33,948 nt of DNA from Pirellulaceae bacterium (lineage in GTDB: Bacteria > Planctomycetota > Planctomycetia > Pirellulales > Pirellulaceae). Position 1 is the stretch's first letter. Each line of letters begins with the position of its first letter. The DNA lies in NCBI GenBank assembly GCA_011087765.1, contig JAALLA010000011.1, positions 1 to 33,948 of the forward strand. Reading direction: 5' to 3'. A program made the translations under genes and the position numbers. Of the stretch, positions 3,949-12,364 are shown piece by piece. Below the pieces are notes generated by a model. That model did no database searches, was not told the origin of the DNA, and saw nothing but the letters and a program-made list of their open reading frames with translations.

Positions 3949-4179
3949 GCGAAAACTACTATTAGTCGAATTAGATCAGTAGGCGAAAGCCGGCTGATTT
4001 GATTCGTGGGGATATATAACCGTGTCTGTGCCAGGTATGGAAATCAACGAAATCGTTGTTTTCTTTTCACTGTTCGGCAGAGGGGACGTTTTATGTAAAG
4101 CAAATTTTTAAAAGGTGGCGGTCATTCGGTTCTGGTGTCAGAATTGGGATCGCCCAACAAAGAAGGAAGGTCACGCCAC

Positions 4180-7023
4180 GTGCCCGTACGCATCTACGCG
4201 TTTGCAAAAGAACTTGGGCTTGATAACAAGCAATTACTTGAGATTTGTGAAAAAGCAAATATCAAGGGTAAGGGCTCTGCGCTAGCAAGTCTGGAAGACG
4301 ACGAGATCGCCATCGTCAAAGGATTCATGGCTGGAGGCGAGGTTGAGAAATCTGAGCCAAAGGCGGACGTTGCCGCACCGATGCGCCCTGTGCGACCGGT
4401 GGCTTCAAAAAAGAAGATTGGTGAAATCGTTACGCCCATTTCTGTGGCTCCTCCGGCAGTTGAAGAGGAGGCGAAAGTCGAATCTGAAGAAGTCGAATCT
4501 GAAGAAGTCGTTGAAGAGGTTGTCGAAGCACCTGAAACGCCGGAGCCTCCCCAAACGTCAGAGGAACCGGCACGCCCTGCCAAGCGAGGTGGTTTGCTCG
4601 ATCGAATTCGTGGTGTGAAGCCCAAGCCAGAAGACGCGCCTGAGAAACCAAAAGTTTCCGCAAAAGCAAAAGCCGTTGAGCCCAAGGCTCCTAAAACCGT
4701 CGCGCCGACGGTCAAGCCTCCGTTGATGCCTCGGCGCCCACCGGGTGTGGCTCCACGTCGTCAGTTGAAAAATCTTGACCGAAGTGGAGATGCTAAAGGC
4801 GATGCGGCCAAGAAGGATGCGCCTAAAAAGAAGTCTGCTGGAGCGAACGTTCGTTTCGCAGCGATGCCTGCGGTCAAGCAGCCGCAACCCCGAAAAGAGA
4901 CCGGCGAGAAGGTTCAAAAGCCAGATATTGCCTTGCCGCAAGACGCAATTAAGAGTGTTAAATCTGGCGGTGGCGTTGCGCCGCTAGAGCACCTTACCAA
5001 GTCCAAGAACAAGAAGAAAAAAGGAAAAACAGCCGACTCGGTTACTGAGACCGAAGAGGCAGCAAAGAAGCGCGGGTTAGGTTCTCGACGTGAACGGGGA
5101 ACTCGCGACGACAGTGCGATGGGCTCACGTCCTTCTCGTCAAAATCGGCGTCCGAATCGCAATCATTCTTCGTTCCGGCGTCGGCATCGTTCGGGGCCAA
5201 CGGTGAATACGGCCGCCCCACGTAAAGAAAACGTTGTCCTGCAACTCCCGTGTACGGTGCGTGAATTTTCAGAAGCAGCGGGCGTTCCCAAAGTTAAGGT
5301 TTTGTTTGCGATCAAACAGCTCGGTGATGAATCAAATAAGAATATCAATTCAATCATCGAAGATGAGATGGTTGAAATGCTGGTCGAAGAGTTGGGCATC
5401 GAATTGGAGATTCGCGAATACCAATCTCTCGAAGACGAATTGCTTGCCGATTTTGATGTCGAACAGGAAGATGCTGAAGCGCTTGAATCGAGAGCTCCCA
5501 TTGTGACTTTCCTCGGCCATGTTGATCACGGAAAAACATCGTTGCTAGATGCACTTATCGGGATCGATGTAGTTTCGGGTGAAGCGGGGGGCATTACCCA
5601 GCACATTCGAGCCTATGAGATCAAGAAGGGTGAAAATAAGATTGCCTTTGTTGATACACCTGGTCATGAAGCGTTTACTGAAATGCGAGCTCGCGGTGCC
5701 AATGTCACCGACATTGCGGTTTTGGTTGTTGCTGCGGACGATGGGATCATGCCTCAAACCGAAGAGGCGATCAGCCACGCGAAGGCTGCCGGTGTTCCGA
5801 TCATCGTCGCGTTGAATAAAATCGATCTTCCCGGAGTCACTCCAGACAAGGCGTTGCAGGATCTGGCAACGCACGAATTGTTGCCAAGTGAATGGGGTGG
5901 CGAAACAGAAGTGATTCAAACGAGTGCTATTGCTGGTACTGGTTTGGATGAATTGTTAGAGACCATTCTGGTGACGGCGGAGTTGCATGAATACAAAGCG
6001 AATCCGTCGCGGCCTGCCTTTGGAACCTGTCTGGAGGCCGAGCAGCAGTCGGATCGTGGAGTCGTCGCGAAGATCATGGTTCAGGGCGGAACTTTGAAGG
6101 TCGGTGACGTCGTGGTGTGTGGCGGTTCATTCGGAAAAGTTAAGGCGATGCACGACACCTTGCGTCCCAAAAAGAAACTTAAAGAAGCGGAGCCGTCCAC
6201 GCCAGTCAATCTGACTGGACTCGACGTAGCGCCGGGTGCGGGTGACAAATTTTATGTGGTGGACGATGTTGCCAAGGCACGTGAAATTGCAGCGACCAGA
6301 GCGCATCGCGGTAAAGTTGAGCAGGTGGGCGGTCGATCTGTTGAGACGTCGCTTGACGAATTCCAGAAACTGCTGGAGTCAGGGAATCTGAATCGCAACT
6401 CTCAGGATATGGTGACGTTAAATCTAGTCATTCGCGCAGATGTGAAAGGTTCGATTGAAGCGATTCAAAAAGAACTTGGCAAGATTGTACATCCCGAAGT
6501 TGAAATCAAGATCCTTCAGTCGCTGGCCGGCGGTGTTTCTGTTGGTGATGTCCGTTTAGCGCATGCTTCTTCTGGTGTGATCGTTGGCTTTAACGTTGTA
6601 GCCAATGAAGAGGCTCGGTCTCTTGCCGATGAATTGGGCGTTGAGATTCGCCGATATGACGTGATCTATAAGATTACCGATGATCTCAAGGCTACGCTGG
6701 AAGGACGCTTGAAGCCTGAAGAGCAAGTTGTTGAACTTGGAATGGCGATGGTCTTGCGAACCTTTAGTGTCAGTAAGACCGGAATGATTGCCGGTTGCCG
6801 GGTAATGCGTGGTTCGGTTCAGCGTGAATGCCGAATGCGAGTCATTCGTGACCAAACCGTGATCGGTGATTACCCGATCGAATCGTTGAAGCGTGAACGC
6901 GACGACGCTAAGGAAGTCCAGCGGGGTATGGAGTGCGGAATCAAGCTGGAAAAATACAATGACATCAAGGAAGGTGATACGCTCGAAGCATACAAGATCG
7001 AAGAAGTGGCGAGAACCTTGTAG
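4180..7023 (+). CDS. infB: Translation initiation factor IF-2
   Basis: GTPase that places initiator tRNA on the 30S subunit and promotes subunit joining. I prefer the GTG at 4180 (947 residues): AGGAAGG lies 9 bases upstream, and the protein then begins MPVRIYAFAKEL, the start expected for an IF2 N-terminal domain. An in-frame GTG at 4135 would add 15 unconserved residues. Order: IF2N domain (1-55), long Lys/Glu/Pro/Ala-rich linker (about 55-345), second IF2N-like domain (about 350-415), G domain with GHVDHGKT at 446-453, GGITQHI, DTPGHEAF, NKID at 546-549 and SAIAGTG, then the beta-barrel and C-terminal fMet-tRNA domains. It follows nusA after a gap of about 230 bases with no ylxR gene between them. 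Confidence 0.96.
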   Translation: MPVRIYAFAKELGLDNKQLLEICEKANIKGKGSALASLEDDEIAIVKGFMAGGEVEKSEPKADVAAPMRPVRPVASKKKIGEIVTPISVAPPAVEEEAKVESEEVESEEVVEEVVEAPETPEPPQTSEEPARPAKRGGLLDRIRGVKPKPEDAPEKPKVSAKAKAVEPKAPKTVAPTVKPPLMPRRPPGVAPRRQLKNLDRSGDAKGDAAKKDAPKKKSAGANVRFAAMPAVKQPQPRKETGEKVQKPDIALPQDAIKSVKSGGGVAPLEHLTKSKNKKKKGKTADSVTETEEAAKKRGLGSRRERGTRDDSAMGSRPSRQNRRPNRNHSSFRRRHRSGPTVNTAAPRKENVVLQLPCTVREFSEAAGVPKVKVLFAIKQLGDESNKNINSIIEDEMVEMLVEELGIELEIREYQSLEDELLADFDVEQEDAEALESRAPIVTFLGHVDHGKTSLLDALIGIDVVSGEAGGITQHIRAYEIKKGENKIAFVDTPGHEAFTEMRARGANVTDIAVLVVAADDGIMPQTEEAISHAKAAGVPIIVALNKIDLPGVTPDKALQDLATHELLPSEWGGETEVIQTSAIAGTGLDELLETILVTAELHEYKANPSRPAFGTCLEAEQQSDRGVVAKIMVQGGTLKVGDVVVCGGSFGKVKAMHDTLRPKKKLKEAEPSTPVNLTGLDVAPGAGDKFYVVDDVAKAREIAATRAHRGKVEQVGGRSVETSLDEFQKLLESGNLNRNSQDMVTLNLVIRADVKGSIEAIQKELGKIVHPEVEIKILQSLAGGVSVGDVRLAHASSGVIVGFNVVANEEARSLADELGVEIRRYDVIYKITDDLKATLEGRLKPEEQVVELGMAMVLRTFSVSKTGMIAGCRVMRGSVQRECRMRVIRDQTVIGDYPIESLKRERDDAKEVQRGMECGIKLEKYNDIKEGDTLEAYKIEEVARTL
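4477..4506 (+). repeat. Tandem 15-bp duplication in the infB linker
   Basis: Two identical 15-base units (GTCGAATCTGAAGAA) lie head to tail and encode VESEE twice, within an acidic part of the IF2 linker. The frame is kept. It looks like a simple slippage duplication in a disordered region and could vary in copy number between strains. Confidence 0.8.
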
Positions 7024-7097: not shown

Positions 7098-7613
7098 ATG
7101 AGTTCCCGTCGTGTTTTGAAAGCCGCTCAGGCGATCCGAGAAGTTGTGAGTATGGCGATTATCGCTGATCTCAAGGATCCGAGAATCAAAGACGTCACCG
7201 TGACTCTGGTAGAAGTCGCTCCTGATATGCGACAAGCTAAGGTTCATGTTTCGGTGATGGGTGATGAAACAAAACAGGGCCTCTGCATTCGTGGGCTGCA
7301 AAGTTCCGCCGGTTACCTGCAGCAAAAAGTCGGAAATCGCATCGATACGCGATACACCCCACGGCTTCAATTTGTTCTCGACAAGGGCATCCAGCATTCG
7401 CTGCTGGTGACTCGTATTCTTGAGGAAGTGCTTCCGGCGGAGCGTGAACAACAGGCGCAAGCGGCGTCAGAGAGTGTTGATTCAGAAGTTGGAGGGTCAG
7501 AGGGATCTGACACTGCGGATTCGCCAGAATCGCTGAGCGAGACTGCGACTGTTGAGGAAACGCACGAATCTGACCGGGAAAGTCCGGACGAATCGGTTGA
7601 AGGTCCGGTATAA
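7098..7613 (+). CDS. rbfA: 30S ribosome-binding factor RbfA with acidic C-terminal tail
   Basis: Late 30S maturation factor that binds near 16S rRNA helix 1. Residues 1-117 are the conserved KH-like domain: SSRRVLKAAQAIREVVSMAI, the conserved DLKDPRIKDVTVTLVEV segment, the KVHVSVMGD strand, and the RYTPRLQFVLDKGIQHSLLVTRIL helix. The protein has 171 residues against roughly 120 for common RbfA. The extra ~50 C-terminal residues are almost only Ser, Glu, Asp, Ala and Thr, so strongly acidic and probably disordered. It sits 74 bases after infB in the widespread infB-rbfA order, which supports the call. No strong SD is visible before the ATG. Confidence 0.93.
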   Translation: MSSRRVLKAAQAIREVVSMAIIADLKDPRIKDVTVTLVEVAPDMRQAKVHVSVMGDETKQGLCIRGLQSSAGYLQQKVGNRIDTRYTPRLQFVLDKGIQHSLLVTRILEEVLPAEREQQAQAASESVDSEVGGSEGSDTADSPESLSETATVEETHESDRESPDESVEGPV

Positions 7614-7748
7614 ACGATTAGATCTTCGCTGGATGGAGCTTTATCGCAATGAATTCCATTCAACGTGGTGACGCCCAAGAATTCGAGACTATCCTGAAAC
7701 GTTAATCTATTTCAATCCAATTTGGTTCCACCGTTGTAAAGAGAAGAA

Positions 7749-8765
7749 ATGTCCGCGAAAAACCGAGCTGATTTGATTACGAAACTTCACAAGTTCGTCA
7801 AAAAAGAATATCAAGTAATCACCCCTCCATCGAATCGGTCGGTGTTGGAGCACATGATTTATGGATGTTGCCTGGAGAATTCAACCTTTGATGCTGCGGA
7901 TGACGCATTCGCGAAGCTTCAAGAAAATTACTTCGACTGGAACGAAGTCCGAGTCACTACGGTGGCTGAGTTGGCGGAGTCATGTCGCAACCTGTCGGAT
8001 CCAACTGCGGCGGCGAAGAGTTTGAAAAAAACACTTCATGGGATTTTCGAACACTACTATCAATTCGATCTTGATTTTCTAAAGAAAGAAAATCTAAGTA
8101 AAGCGGTTCTGACATTTCAGAAGTTCAACGGCGTTTCCCAGTTTGTGGTGTCTTACGTTGCTCAAAACGGATTGGGGGGTCACTCAATTCCACTCGACCA
8201 TTCTTTGATGCGTTTGTTTTACGTACTTGGAATTGTGACAGAAGATGAATCAAAGAAAGACCGGGTGCCAGGGCTGGAGCGAACGATTGCAAAAGCCAAG
8301 GGAGCGGAATTTTCGATCCTGGTACATCAACTGGCAGTCGCGTTCAACAGCGCTCCATTCAGTACGGCAATTCGGTCTAAGATATTAAAAATCAGTGGTG
8401 ATGCAAAAGAGCGATTCCCCAAGCGGGCAAGTCGTAAAAAAGAGCCCGAAAAGAAAACGCCTGCGAAAAAAGAGCCTGTGAAAGCCGCTGTCAAAGCGAA
8501 ACCAGCAGCGAAGAAACCAGCTGTGAAGGCGAAGGCGGTCGCGAAAAAAACTGCCGCAAAAGCGAAGGCGAAAACCAAAAAGAAAGTCGTAAAGAAATCG
8601 GCTGCCAAGTCAGTTAAAAAATCTGCTGCGAAACCGGCGAAAAAGGCTGCGGCCAAGCCAGTCAAAAAAGCAAAAGCCAAGCCGGTCAAGAAGGCGAAGG
8701 CGACTAAAAAAGTGACCAAAAAGAAATCGCCAACGAAACGGCTTTCGAAGAAAAAACCGCGATAG
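7749..8765 (+). CDS. Degenerate HhH-GPD (endonuclease III-like) domain fused to a histone H1-like Lys/Ala tail
   Basis: A probable DNA-binding protein of unknown role. Residues about 10-215 are helical and resemble the endonuclease III fold: LEHMIYGCCLEN early, then FQKFNGVSQFVVSYVA and IPLDHSLMRLFYVLGIV where Nth has its GVGxKTA hairpin and VDTH segment. Asp150 matches the catalytic Asp position. The lyase Lys position holds Phe132, and the four-cysteine iron-sulfur loop is absent, so ordinary AP-lyase activity is unlikely. Residues about 225-338 are a strongly basic tail of Lys, Ala, Pro and Val (AKKP, PVKKAKAK), like bacterial histone H1 homologues. The SD AAGAGAAG precedes the ATG. It is the last gene before a strong terminator and is probably cotranscribed with rbfA. 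The fold call is from motif spacing only. Confidence 0.7.
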   Translation: MSAKNRADLITKLHKFVKKEYQVITPPSNRSVLEHMIYGCCLENSTFDAADDAFAKLQENYFDWNEVRVTTVAELAESCRNLSDPTAAAKSLKKTLHGIFEHYYQFDLDFLKKENLSKAVLTFQKFNGVSQFVVSYVAQNGLGGHSIPLDHSLMRLFYVLGIVTEDESKKDRVPGLERTIAKAKGAEFSILVHQLAVAFNSAPFSTAIRSKILKISGDAKERFPKRASRKKEPEKKTPAKKEPVKAAVKAKPAAKKPAVKAKAVAKKTAAKAKAKTKKKVVKKSAAKSVKKSAAKPAKKAAAKPVKKAKAKPVKKAKATKKVTKKKSPTKRLSKKKPR

Positions 8766-8771
8766 GAACAA

Positions 8772-8798
8772 GGCGTTTGGTCATCAAACGCCCGTTTT
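8772..8798 (+). terminator. Intrinsic terminator after the nusA-infB-rbfA block
   Basis: A perfect 8-bp stem, GGCGTTTG (8772-8779) with CAAACGCC (8785-8792), has a five-base loop and is followed by CG and TTTT at 8795-8798. It starts seven bases after the stop of the H1-tailed gene and lies 50 bases before yebC. This is the clearest Rho-independent terminator in the window. Confidence 0.8.
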
Positions 8799-8848
8799 GA
8801 CCGTGCTGGATGAATGGAACTTGAATTTCGTAATGAAGAGGTGATCTG

Positions 8849-9604
8849 ATGGCGGGCCACAGTAAGTGGGCAAACATCAAGCATAAGAAAGCAGCCACCG
8901 ATGCCAAGCGTGGAAAGGCATGGAGCAAACTTTCGAAGGCAATTATTGTTGCAGCCAAAGCAGGTGGTGCGGATCCGGATGGAAATATCCGGTTGCGGAC
9001 TGCAATTCAGGATGCCAAAGCGGTCAGCATGCCCAAGGACAACATTGAGCGGGCGATTCGGAAAGGGGCCGGTGAAACTGGCGGGGACGATTACGAAGAA
9101 ATCATCTACGAAGGATACGCTGCTGCCGGCGTGGCAGTGATGTGTGATATTTTAACCGACAACCGAAATCGAACGGCGCCTGAATTGCGTAAGCTGTTTG
9201 AAAAAGGTGGCGGTAAAATGGGAGCGACTGGCTGTGTTAGTTACATGTTCGATCGGAAGGGTTTGATTGTAATTTCAGCCGACAAGATCGATGAAGAAAA
9301 ACTGATGGAACTTGCATTGGAGGCAGGCGCTGAGGATATCGCGGCGAATGAGAACAGTTTTGATGTGACTTGTGAGCCGGACGTTTTCACCAATGTAAGT
9401 GATGCGTTGGAAGCGGCGGAAGTTGTTTGTGAATCAAAACAACTTACGCGTATCCCACAAAACACGGTTGATATAGAGGTCGAGGATGCGCGGAAAGTTC
9501 TTAAGCTTATGGAAGCTTTAGACGATCACGACGATGTCCAGATGGTTTCGGCCAACTTTAATATTTCGGACGAAGCGATGGCAATTTTAGCCGCCGAAGG
9601 TTAA
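8849..9604 (+). CDS. YebC/PmpR family DNA-binding or ribosome-associated regulator
   Basis: Conserved bacterial protein, 251 residues. The family was long described as transcriptional regulators (PmpR) and has more recently been linked to relieving ribosome stalling at proline stretches; which applies here cannot be told. The start MAGHSKWANIKHKKAATDAKRGK is the family hallmark. It is followed by PDGNIRLRTAIQDAKAVSMPKDNIERAIRKG and the central YEGYAAAGVAVMCDILTDNRNRTAPELR block, with acidic domain 3 at the end (EALDDHDDVQMVSANFNI). GAGG lies 9 bases before the ATG. The terminator at 8772-8798 separates it from the block on its left, so it probably has its own promoter; TTGACC at 8796-8801 is a weak candidate -35. 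It is convergent with glyS. Confidence 0.93.
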   Translation: MAGHSKWANIKHKKAATDAKRGKAWSKLSKAIIVAAKAGGADPDGNIRLRTAIQDAKAVSMPKDNIERAIRKGAGETGGDDYEEIIYEGYAAAGVAVMCDILTDNRNRTAPELRKLFEKGGGKMGATGCVSYMFDRKGLIVISADKIDEEKLMELALEAGAEDIAANENSFDVTCEPDVFTNVSDALEAAEVVCESKQLTRIPQNTVDIEVEDARKVLKLMEALDDHDDVQMVSANFNISDEAMAILAAEG

Positions 9605-11418: not shown

Positions 11419-12195
11419 TTAATTTTTTAGCGACTGCGGATTTTTGATGATCCAGCGTTGTAGATCCAGTTCAGGGACAAGCTGGAAAGTGTCAATTTGA
11501 GAAGCAAAAACAATATCGGGGTCATGCCCGATTTTAACTAAATTGAGGCCGCCTCTGGCGTTACGAAAAAAATCGGCAAGCGACTTTCCTTGTTCCAGCT
11601 CCTGGCAAGTTGTTTTCCAGTGTCCGAGGGCAATCGAGGCCATGTCTGTCAATTGCCCTACAGGTTGGTTGGAGGAGGTGCGGATGGCGATAATCCGTTC
11701 CAGCAGGGCGCCAGCGAAGAGGACATCTTCGCTGGTAATACATCGGTCGGTTCCGGAGCAAACCACCGTAACCCGGGCGTCCTCGGCGGTCTCCTGAGCG
11801 ACCGCATCGAGATTCACCATCGCGCCGATAAGCACACGTTTGGCGGCTCGGCAATGTTCCATGGCAACGGTCCCGTTGGTGGTGGCGAGGATGAGGGTCT
11901 TGTCTTTGATTGCCGCTGGCGTGTATTCGATTGGGGAATTCCCATGATGAAATCCCTCGACGATTTGTCCACCCCGTTCGCCGCCGATCACGGCGTCCCC
12001 TTGAAACTGTTGGTAAGCCGCACGGGCAGCCTCGACGCTGGGCTGGGGCATAATTTCGGTGCATCCGTTGTAAAGCGCGCTTACGATTGTAGTCGTGGCT
12101 CGCAAGACATCGACAACGATCACCGATTGCCCGGTGAGCGATTCGGGTTGAACCAGGCTTGGCAGGAGGGCGACGTCCAATACGGGGCGATTCAT
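11419..12195 (-). CDS. comB: ComB-like 2-phosphosulfolactate phosphatase
   Basis: Family enzyme that dephosphorylates 2-phosphosulfolactate to sulfolactate, a step of coenzyme M or sulfolactate synthesis in the organisms where it is characterised. The protein has 258 residues from the ATG at 12195. A longer frame from a TTG at 12249 adds an unconserved leader and was not chosen. Seen: VIVVDVLRATTTIVSALYNG near the start, GGERGGQIVEGFHHGNSP, LATTNGTVAMEHC in the middle and VVCSGTDRCITSEDVLFAGAL later, which together are the ComB signature. No other coenzyme M or sulfolactate gene is in the window, so the true substrate is uncertain. It is divergent from menG, with about 170 bases between the starts. 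Confidence 0.85.
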   Translation of the reverse strand: MNRPVLDVALLPSLVQPESLTGQSVIVVDVLRATTTIVSALYNGCTEIMPQPSVEAARAAYQQFQGDAVIGGERGGQIVEGFHHGNSPIEYTPAAIKDKTLILATTNGTVAMEHCRAAKRVLIGAMVNLDAVAQETAEDARVTVVCSGTDRCITSEDVLFAGALLERIIAIRTSSNQPVGQLTDMASIALGHWKTTCQELEQGKSLADFFRNARGGLNLVKIGHDPDIVFASQIDTFQLVPELDLQRWIIKNPQSLKN

Positions 12196-12364
12196 ATGAT
12201 TCAGGCTAAAACTGTGATATTTTCGGTTGGTTAGGTAGTTCCATAGCAATTCCCAGCAGTTAATGTATCCTGACAGATTCGGTCAGTCCAAGTAAAGCGG
12301 TGCTGACAATGTTTTACGGTAAAAAGCTGTAGAATCATCGGCCTTACGGTCTCCAAGCAAGACG

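Follow-up and report, generated by a model that had tools for sequence, protein, structure and literature searches.

A degenerate endonuclease III-like protein with a strongly basic tail is encoded directly downstream of rbfA in the stretch of planctomycete DNA analysed here (33,948 nucleotides, hereafter the window), and it most likely belongs to an ancient, vertically inherited family of the Planctomycetota, of which it would be the Pirellulales member. The helix-hairpin-helix HhH-GPD fold of its globular part is known; what appears new is the combination of endonuclease III (EndoIII) descent, catalytic erosion, a fixed operon position with rbfA and a tail. We propose that the family descends from an HhH-GPD glycosylase resembling EndoIII-1 (DR2438), that it is lyase-less, and that it now binds nucleic acids, most likely without catalysis. 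That it is, more precisely, a lyase-less paralogue bound to DNA and tethered there by its basic tail is the explanation that we tentatively favor, at a little under an even chance.

Genomic Context and Distribution

The gene (7749-8765, + strand) encodes 338 amino acids plus a stop codon and lies in a planctomycete MAG within a cluster ordered nusA-infB-rbfA-[ORF]-yebC, the neighbors being assigned by Pfam (Table 1). The nearest named relatives are Mariniblastus and other Pirellulaceae. Placement in the rbfA operon, as read in the initial annotation, is borne out by the Pfam RBFA gene immediately upstream, and the arrangement is widely shared: in 132 of the 150 homologous loci that were extracted, rbfA immediately precedes the gene in the same orientation, frequently overlapping it by a few bases, with a stop-start arrangement (gap -3) in many loci. 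yebC is the downstream neighbor in many relatives too; in L068 and L193 a HisG-like (ATP phosphoribosyltransferase) or TPR-repeat gene, as read from the sequence, stands between the HhH gene and yebC. The protein is probably made together with NusA, IF2 and RbfA. A scan of positions 7400-8900 for promoters and terminators returned no more sites than in shuffled sequences. Elsewhere in the window, near glyS and ubiE, 11419-12249 (- strand) encodes a 2-phosphosulpholactate phosphatase of the ComB family (Pfam 2-ph_phosp, E=2e-63).

Table 1. Features of the gene and its neighbors, in window positions
Feature	Position	Strand	Remarks
Globular HhH-GPD (endonuclease III-like) domain, catalytically degenerate	7749..8423	+	Residues 1-225; AF2 and Foldseek, DrEndoIII-1 profile match, dN/dS
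Hallmark segment D-W-N-E-V-R-V-T-T-V-A-E	7935..7970	+	Residues 63-74; N65 and R68 invariant (139/139)
Degenerate hairpin and lyase position G128-V-S-Q-F132, replacing G-h-G-x-K	8130..8144	+	
G144-H145-S-I-P148-L-D150: conserved His and Pro, former catalytic Asp	8178..8198	+	One residue before predicted helix 151-159
Disordered Lys/Ala-rich H1-like tail	8424..8762	+	Residues 226-338; net charge +47; length differs among orthologues
rbfA, directly upstream of the ORF	7098..7613	+	Pfam RBFA; synteny
infB (IF-2), same gene cluster	4135..7023	+	Pfam
yebC/TACO1, next gene downstream, 83 bases past the stop codon	8849..9604	+	Pfam; synteny

At the class level, 289 of 298 sampled genomes hold a match at E<=0.001, and orthologues also occur in other classes of Planctomycetota; at the phylum level the same threshold is reached in 249 of 392 genomes, the weakest matches possibly including ordinary glycosylases. 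A scan of contigs with a close relative as query returned matches in Planctomycetota only. The supported groups of a 95-row tree are Pirellulales, f4, f5 and a group from other classes linked to rbfA (f7, f60, f78 and f89 among others), which is consistent with vertical inheritance; we infer that f4 is Planctomycetaceae-like, f5 Gemmataceae-like and f113 Isosphaeraceae-like. No description of a planctomycete family of this kind was found in the open-access literature searched, and nothing pertinent emerged there on planctomycete rbfA with a glycosylase, on loss of the iron-sulfur loop in HhH-GPD proteins of planctomycetes or on lysine-rich tails in planctomycetes; the main text of a Planctopirus limnophila Tn-seq paper names no such gene (PMC10632474).

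Fold and Ancestry of the Globular Part

Predicted structure and sequence profile concur that the globular part is an HhH-GPD fold. The best AF2 model of residues 1-225, built from 11 sequences, reached a pLDDT of 84 and a pTM of 0.82; the remaining four models stayed at 56-69, which marks the input alignment as shallow. Foldseek matched the globular model to EndoIII, MutY and ROS1 with a probability of 1.00, with the best E-value for Deinococcus radiodurans EndoIII-1 (DrEndoIII-1, 2.7e-6) and the best TM-score for the EndoIII-DNA complex 1orp (TMq 0.67). A profile of 62 family members retrieved DrEndoIII-1 from the PDB over the whole domain (E=2.5e-20), and hhalign aligned it to the Nth encoded by the same genome (E=2.3e-8). 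The HhH-GPD layout claimed in the initial annotation is thereby upheld, and the structural comparison with Nth and MutY that had been recommended as a check matched EndoIII and MutY rather than an unrelated fold.

DrEndoIII-1 (DR2438; PDB 4unf, 8a5f; NF053634) is the best match by sequence, profile and structure over nearly the whole globular part. It carries a G-V-G-V-K hairpin with the lyase Lys and an Fe-S cysteine loop, neither of which is found in the window protein, and it lacks the basic tail that the latter bears. The distance is also visible in family models. Pfam gives no match in the window protein, PF00730 included, and PF00730 matches just three of the 62 family members at E<0.01. 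NCBIfam gives a weak match to the DR2438-type model NF053634 (27.5-28.4 bits, E about 1e-6, with E=2e-6 at 27.5 bits; curated cut-off 400), and this "monofunctional DNA glycosylase" model matches 50 of the 62 at E<0.01; by its score the window protein counts as a relative rather than a member. PF00730 finds three further genes in the same genome, read from their sequences as a canonical Nth with Lys and Fe-S cysteines intact, a MutY and an AlkA-like protein, to which the window protein is additional. Its identity as the housekeeping Nth or MutY is excluded by these separate intact copies.

Erosion of the Catalytic Positions

The alignment places Phe132 at the position of the lyase Lys and Asp150 at that of the catalytic Asp. 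The Phe was pointed out in the initial annotation. Of 139 operon-linked members, 111 have F at the lyase position, 22 have Y and none has K; the Lys is present in the genome's own Nth. The G-h-G hairpin of HhH-GPD proteins contacts the DNA backbone. Here it reads G-V-S, and its second Gly (third hairpin position) is retained in two of the 139. When hhalign compares the window protein with the MutY of the same genome, the base-recognition Glu shared by MutY and MIG falls on G39, and this position is A, G or S in 135/139; the Glu itself is E37 in Escherichia coli MutY and E42 in MIG (PMC2714593).

The catalytic Asp requires more nuance. D150 was correctly identified, yet its presence fails as a sign of retained catalysis, since D stands there in 105 of the 139 members and another residue in the other 34: 16 have N, six have S, five have T, four have G, and C, E and H each occur once. 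Replacements by the helix N-cap residues N, S, T and G account for 31 of these 34 against a background of 20% (p about 4e-19 against composition, relatedness being left out of the statistic), and D150 directly precedes helix 151-159 in the AF2 model. When the 225 positions are ordered by conservation within Pirellulales, D150 comes 87th; the 95-row tree requires at least 10 changes of the Asp, and a close relative that is 71% identical (L010) has N. It is kept in 27/27 f5 and f113/f116 orthologues, most of which are Fe-S-bearing, and in all 13 from f4. "Asp present, so active" was consequently rejected as a decisive argument. So was "Asp lost, so dead": loss of both Lys and Asp is no proof of inactivity, given that Saccharolobus Sis-HhH-GPD is an active bifunctional alkylbase glycosylase with Glu at the Lys position, an Fe-S loop and Ser at the Asp position (PMC11754123). 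Sis-HhH-GPD lacks the Lys, like the window protein, and the canonical Asp, like 34/139 relatives; it differs from the window protein, which has Phe at the Lys position, keeps the Asp and has no Fe-S loop.

These observations bear on a first alternative, namely that the family consists of monofunctional glycosylases of the MIG or DrEndoIII-1 type, excising a base without beta-lyase activity and relying on the tail for greater processivity on DNA. The closest solved relative, DrEndoIII-1, is described as mostly monofunctional (PMC10523315), the NF053634 matches among the 62 members point the same way, and the window protein retains the Asp, as do all sampled f4, f5 and f113/f116 members and 76% of members overall. 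F or Y at the Lys position also resembles Y126 of MIG, a monofunctional T/G glycosylase that is active with Tyr there (PMC2714593); this Tyr, like the retention of the Asp in those groups, counts against a non-catalytic reading. Nevertheless, we consider this alternative unlikely. The window protein scores 28 bits where NF053634 demands 400, the Asp has been lost repeatedly in close relatives, neither the second Gly of the hairpin nor the Glu by which MutY and MIG recognize the base is present, and the most constrained residues (N65, R68 and D63) are no known catalytic positions.

Fe-S-bearing orthologues from f5 and f113/f116 (for example, L058, L151 and L160) often read S/N/T-D-F/Y, that is, an Asp beside an aromatic lyase position; judged from their sequences, these orthologues may still be active and would be the best glycosylase candidates. 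In another planctomycete, L086 (G137:C5, 1702-3498, - strand) encodes 617 amino acids in which an Fe-S-bearing HhH-GPD domain and a C5-cytosine DNA methyltransferase can be read; its lyase position is a Tyr (GIGKY), as in the T/G mismatch glycosylase MIG, and built-in repair of deaminated 5-methylcytosine is a plausible role for this fusion.

Loss of the Iron-Sulfur Loop

As the initial annotation noted, the iron-sulfur cysteines are missing: the window protein contains no C-x6-C-x2-C-x5-C pattern. This absence is secondary, because orthologues of the Gemmataceae- and Isosphaeraceae-like groups have an intact loop and others have lost it. The pattern C-x6-C-x2-C-x(4-6)-C occurs in 31 operon-linked orthologues, which rules out an original absence of the cluster; it is found in 17/18 members from f113/f116, 8/9 from f5 and 6/29 from other classes (operon-linked), and in 0/70 Pirellulales and 0/13 f4 members, counts that are slightly low since the regular expression missed L154, which looks intact. 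Three changes on the 95-row tree are needed to explain this distribution. Where the earlier reading allowed that homologues with both an intact lyase Lys and an intact Fe-S loop would speak against it, the family offers one half, the loop in these 31 orthologues, and not the other, the Lys being found in 0/139. The C-terminus is short in Fe-S-bearing f113/f116 members, with a median of 23 residues; the median is 126 for Pirellulales and 93 for f4. Tails are also short in those members of other classes that lack the Fe-S loop. We offer as a suggestion that the Fe-S loop was succeeded by the basic tail; the independent losses are too few for more.

The Basic Tail

The H1-like Lys/Ala tail described initially stands: residues 226-338 comprise 113 amino acids, of which 46 are Lys and 27 Ala, for a net charge of +47, and in the full-length model disorder is predicted from residue 229 (pLDDT 30-40). 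The globular part alone has a net charge of +4. Of the curated H1-like families, hist_H1_lk_Burk scored 14 bits, below its cut-off of 80, and Pfam gave no match. Lys-rich, repetitive and length-variable regions are known from Chlamydia Hc2, Pseudomonas AlgP and the tail of actinobacterial TopA (PMC2848022, PMC9239181, PMC7398561). The tail of the window protein resembles these regions, with the difference that it is joined to a degenerate repair-enzyme fold.

Most members from Pirellulales and f4 bear Lys/Ala-rich tails, and tail length (about 20 to 280 amino acids) and composition vary widely among orthologues. A generic habit of the lineage could account for this, the tail having no specific chromatin role and only the globular part mattering, a view compatible with the other readings. 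The wide variation of the tail next to a nearly frozen globular part is what such a habit would leave, as are the Lys/Ala-rich stretches elsewhere in the same genome (the 56-residue frame of L204, and L205) and the Lys/Ala/Pro-rich region of IF2. We find this view doubtful, for most members keep the positive net charge and the Lys-richness, four of the eight genome-wide matches to a KKxAAK-coding pattern fall inside this single gene, and the tail dN/dS of 0.05-0.18 is well below 1, with the caveat that the alignment of repeats is uncertain. The two side cases deserve description. The low-complexity region of IF2 is long and extends from the N-terminal domain to the GTPase core. The 56-amino-acid open frame of L204 (G000:C296, about 3813) has a Lys/Ala-rich end very like the tail of the window protein and, from its sequence, is possibly a small basic nucleic-acid-binding protein.

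A New Focus of Constraint

The strongest conservation lies in the motif D-W-N-E-x-R-V, whose N65 and R68 are invariant in all 139 operon-linked members; D63, V69, E74, L96, F100, H145 and P148 are nearly so. We know of no catalytic role for the positions of N65 and R68. DrEndoIII-1 carries a similar segment, DWDAIT. Since these residues are invariant and the catalytic positions relaxed, the constraint on the family has moved to this segment.

In comparisons with seven close relatives, the globular part shows a dN/dS of 0.012-0.040, compared with 0.040-0.055 for IF2, 0.070-0.129 for RbfA and 0.019-0.050 for YebC. Its ratio is lower than that of IF2 and RbfA in 7/7 comparisons and than that of YebC in 6/7, the exception being L006, which excludes a decaying pseudogene. 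A chance ORF is excluded by the same ratios and by the orthologues that almost every genome of the class contains. Such conservation implies an important role, putatively in nucleic-acid binding.

Whether that nucleic acid would be DNA is where a second alternative enters. Binding to RNA or ribosomes is a serious rival because the operon context points to translation: the glycosylase fold would have been recruited to rRNA, tRNA or pre-ribosomes alongside RbfA and IF2, and its tail would resemble the tails that ribosomal proteins carry. The order infB-rbfA-[gene]-(yebC) is kept phylum-wide among translation and ribosome proteins, often with the stop-start overlap onto rbfA, and the DNA-contact hairpin is eroded while D63, N65, E66 and R68 are invariant or nearly so. 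Basic disordered tails, such as this one, bind RNA as well as DNA. On the other hand, Pfam revealed no similarity to RNA-binding families in the window protein or in family members, and bacterial operons often hold unrelated genes, as the HisG-like gene next in some relatives illustrates. Moreover, to our knowledge there is no precedent for an HhH-GPD protein in a ribosomal role. We judge this alternative unlikely.

A Non-Catalytic DNA-Binding Protein?

Non-catalytic DNA binding remains the reading that we prefer. The structure-binding nucleoid role suggested in the initial annotation is conjectural; an RNA or ribosome role and a monofunctional glycosylase suit the context too. Non-catalytic DNA binding is supported by F or Y at the Lys position in 133/139 members, the relaxed Asp, the lost hairpin Gly and the replaced base-recognition Glu, by the low dN/dS of the globular part and the predicted disordered, strongly basic tail, and by the separate Nth, MutY and AlkA-like genes kept in the genome. 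The modest charge of the globular part and the neighborhood of translation factors instead of repair genes count against it. There are precedents for such a loss of function. Mag2, AlkF/AlkG and AlkD2 are homologous to glycosylases but do not excise bases, and AlkF/AlkG bind branched DNA (PMC4433238). Schizosaccharomyces pombe Mag2 (PDB 4b21, 4hsb), which is among the Foldseek matches, is likewise a non-catalytic HhH-GPD paralogue beside an active glycosylase; weak DNA binding has been reported for it and AP-site protection postulated (PMC4433238). It differs from the window protein, of EndoIII lineage, in belonging to the AlkA/Mag lineage and lying outside a translation operon. Another of the best matches, D. 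radiodurans EndoIII-3 (DR0928; PDB 4uob), binds DNA without detectable EndoIII activity; unlike the window protein, it is reported to retain the catalytic residues and Fe-S cluster (PMC10523315), and no basic tail has been described for it. Nor is Mag2 known to carry an H1-like extension.

In the mechanism that we propose, the two-domain HhH-GPD body would recognize sites of distortion or damage, such as an abasic site, a mismatch or bent DNA, and leave them uncut, as reported for Mag2. The Lys/Ala tail would meanwhile hold the protein on DNA by non-specific electrostatic tethering, and it may make up for the DNA contacts that disappeared with the [4Fe-4S] loop. The absence of catalysis, a ligand that is DNA and not RNA, the recognized target and cotranscription are all points that we infer. 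In its fullest form, the proposal would describe a phylum-wide binder of chromatin or damaged sites: a disarmed EndoIII-type enzyme whose Fe-S loop was exchanged for an H1-like tail in two orders, with D-W-N-E-x-R-V as its new invariant segment, and made with IF2 and RbfA. That complete picture is somewhat unlikely to hold in every part.

Concluding Remarks

We regard the family as a likely core gene of the Planctomycetota, a phylum noted for its unusual cell biology, given that it lacks a Pfam family, is under stronger constraint than IF2 and RbfA, and occupies one operon position across classes. If the protein binds DNA without cutting it, a bacterial repair enzyme would have been turned into an architectural or damage-guarding protein, and its Fe-S-bearing and Fe-S-less orthologues would represent natural intermediates of that conversion. 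If it binds ribosomes instead, it would reveal an unexpected use of the HhH-GPD fold.
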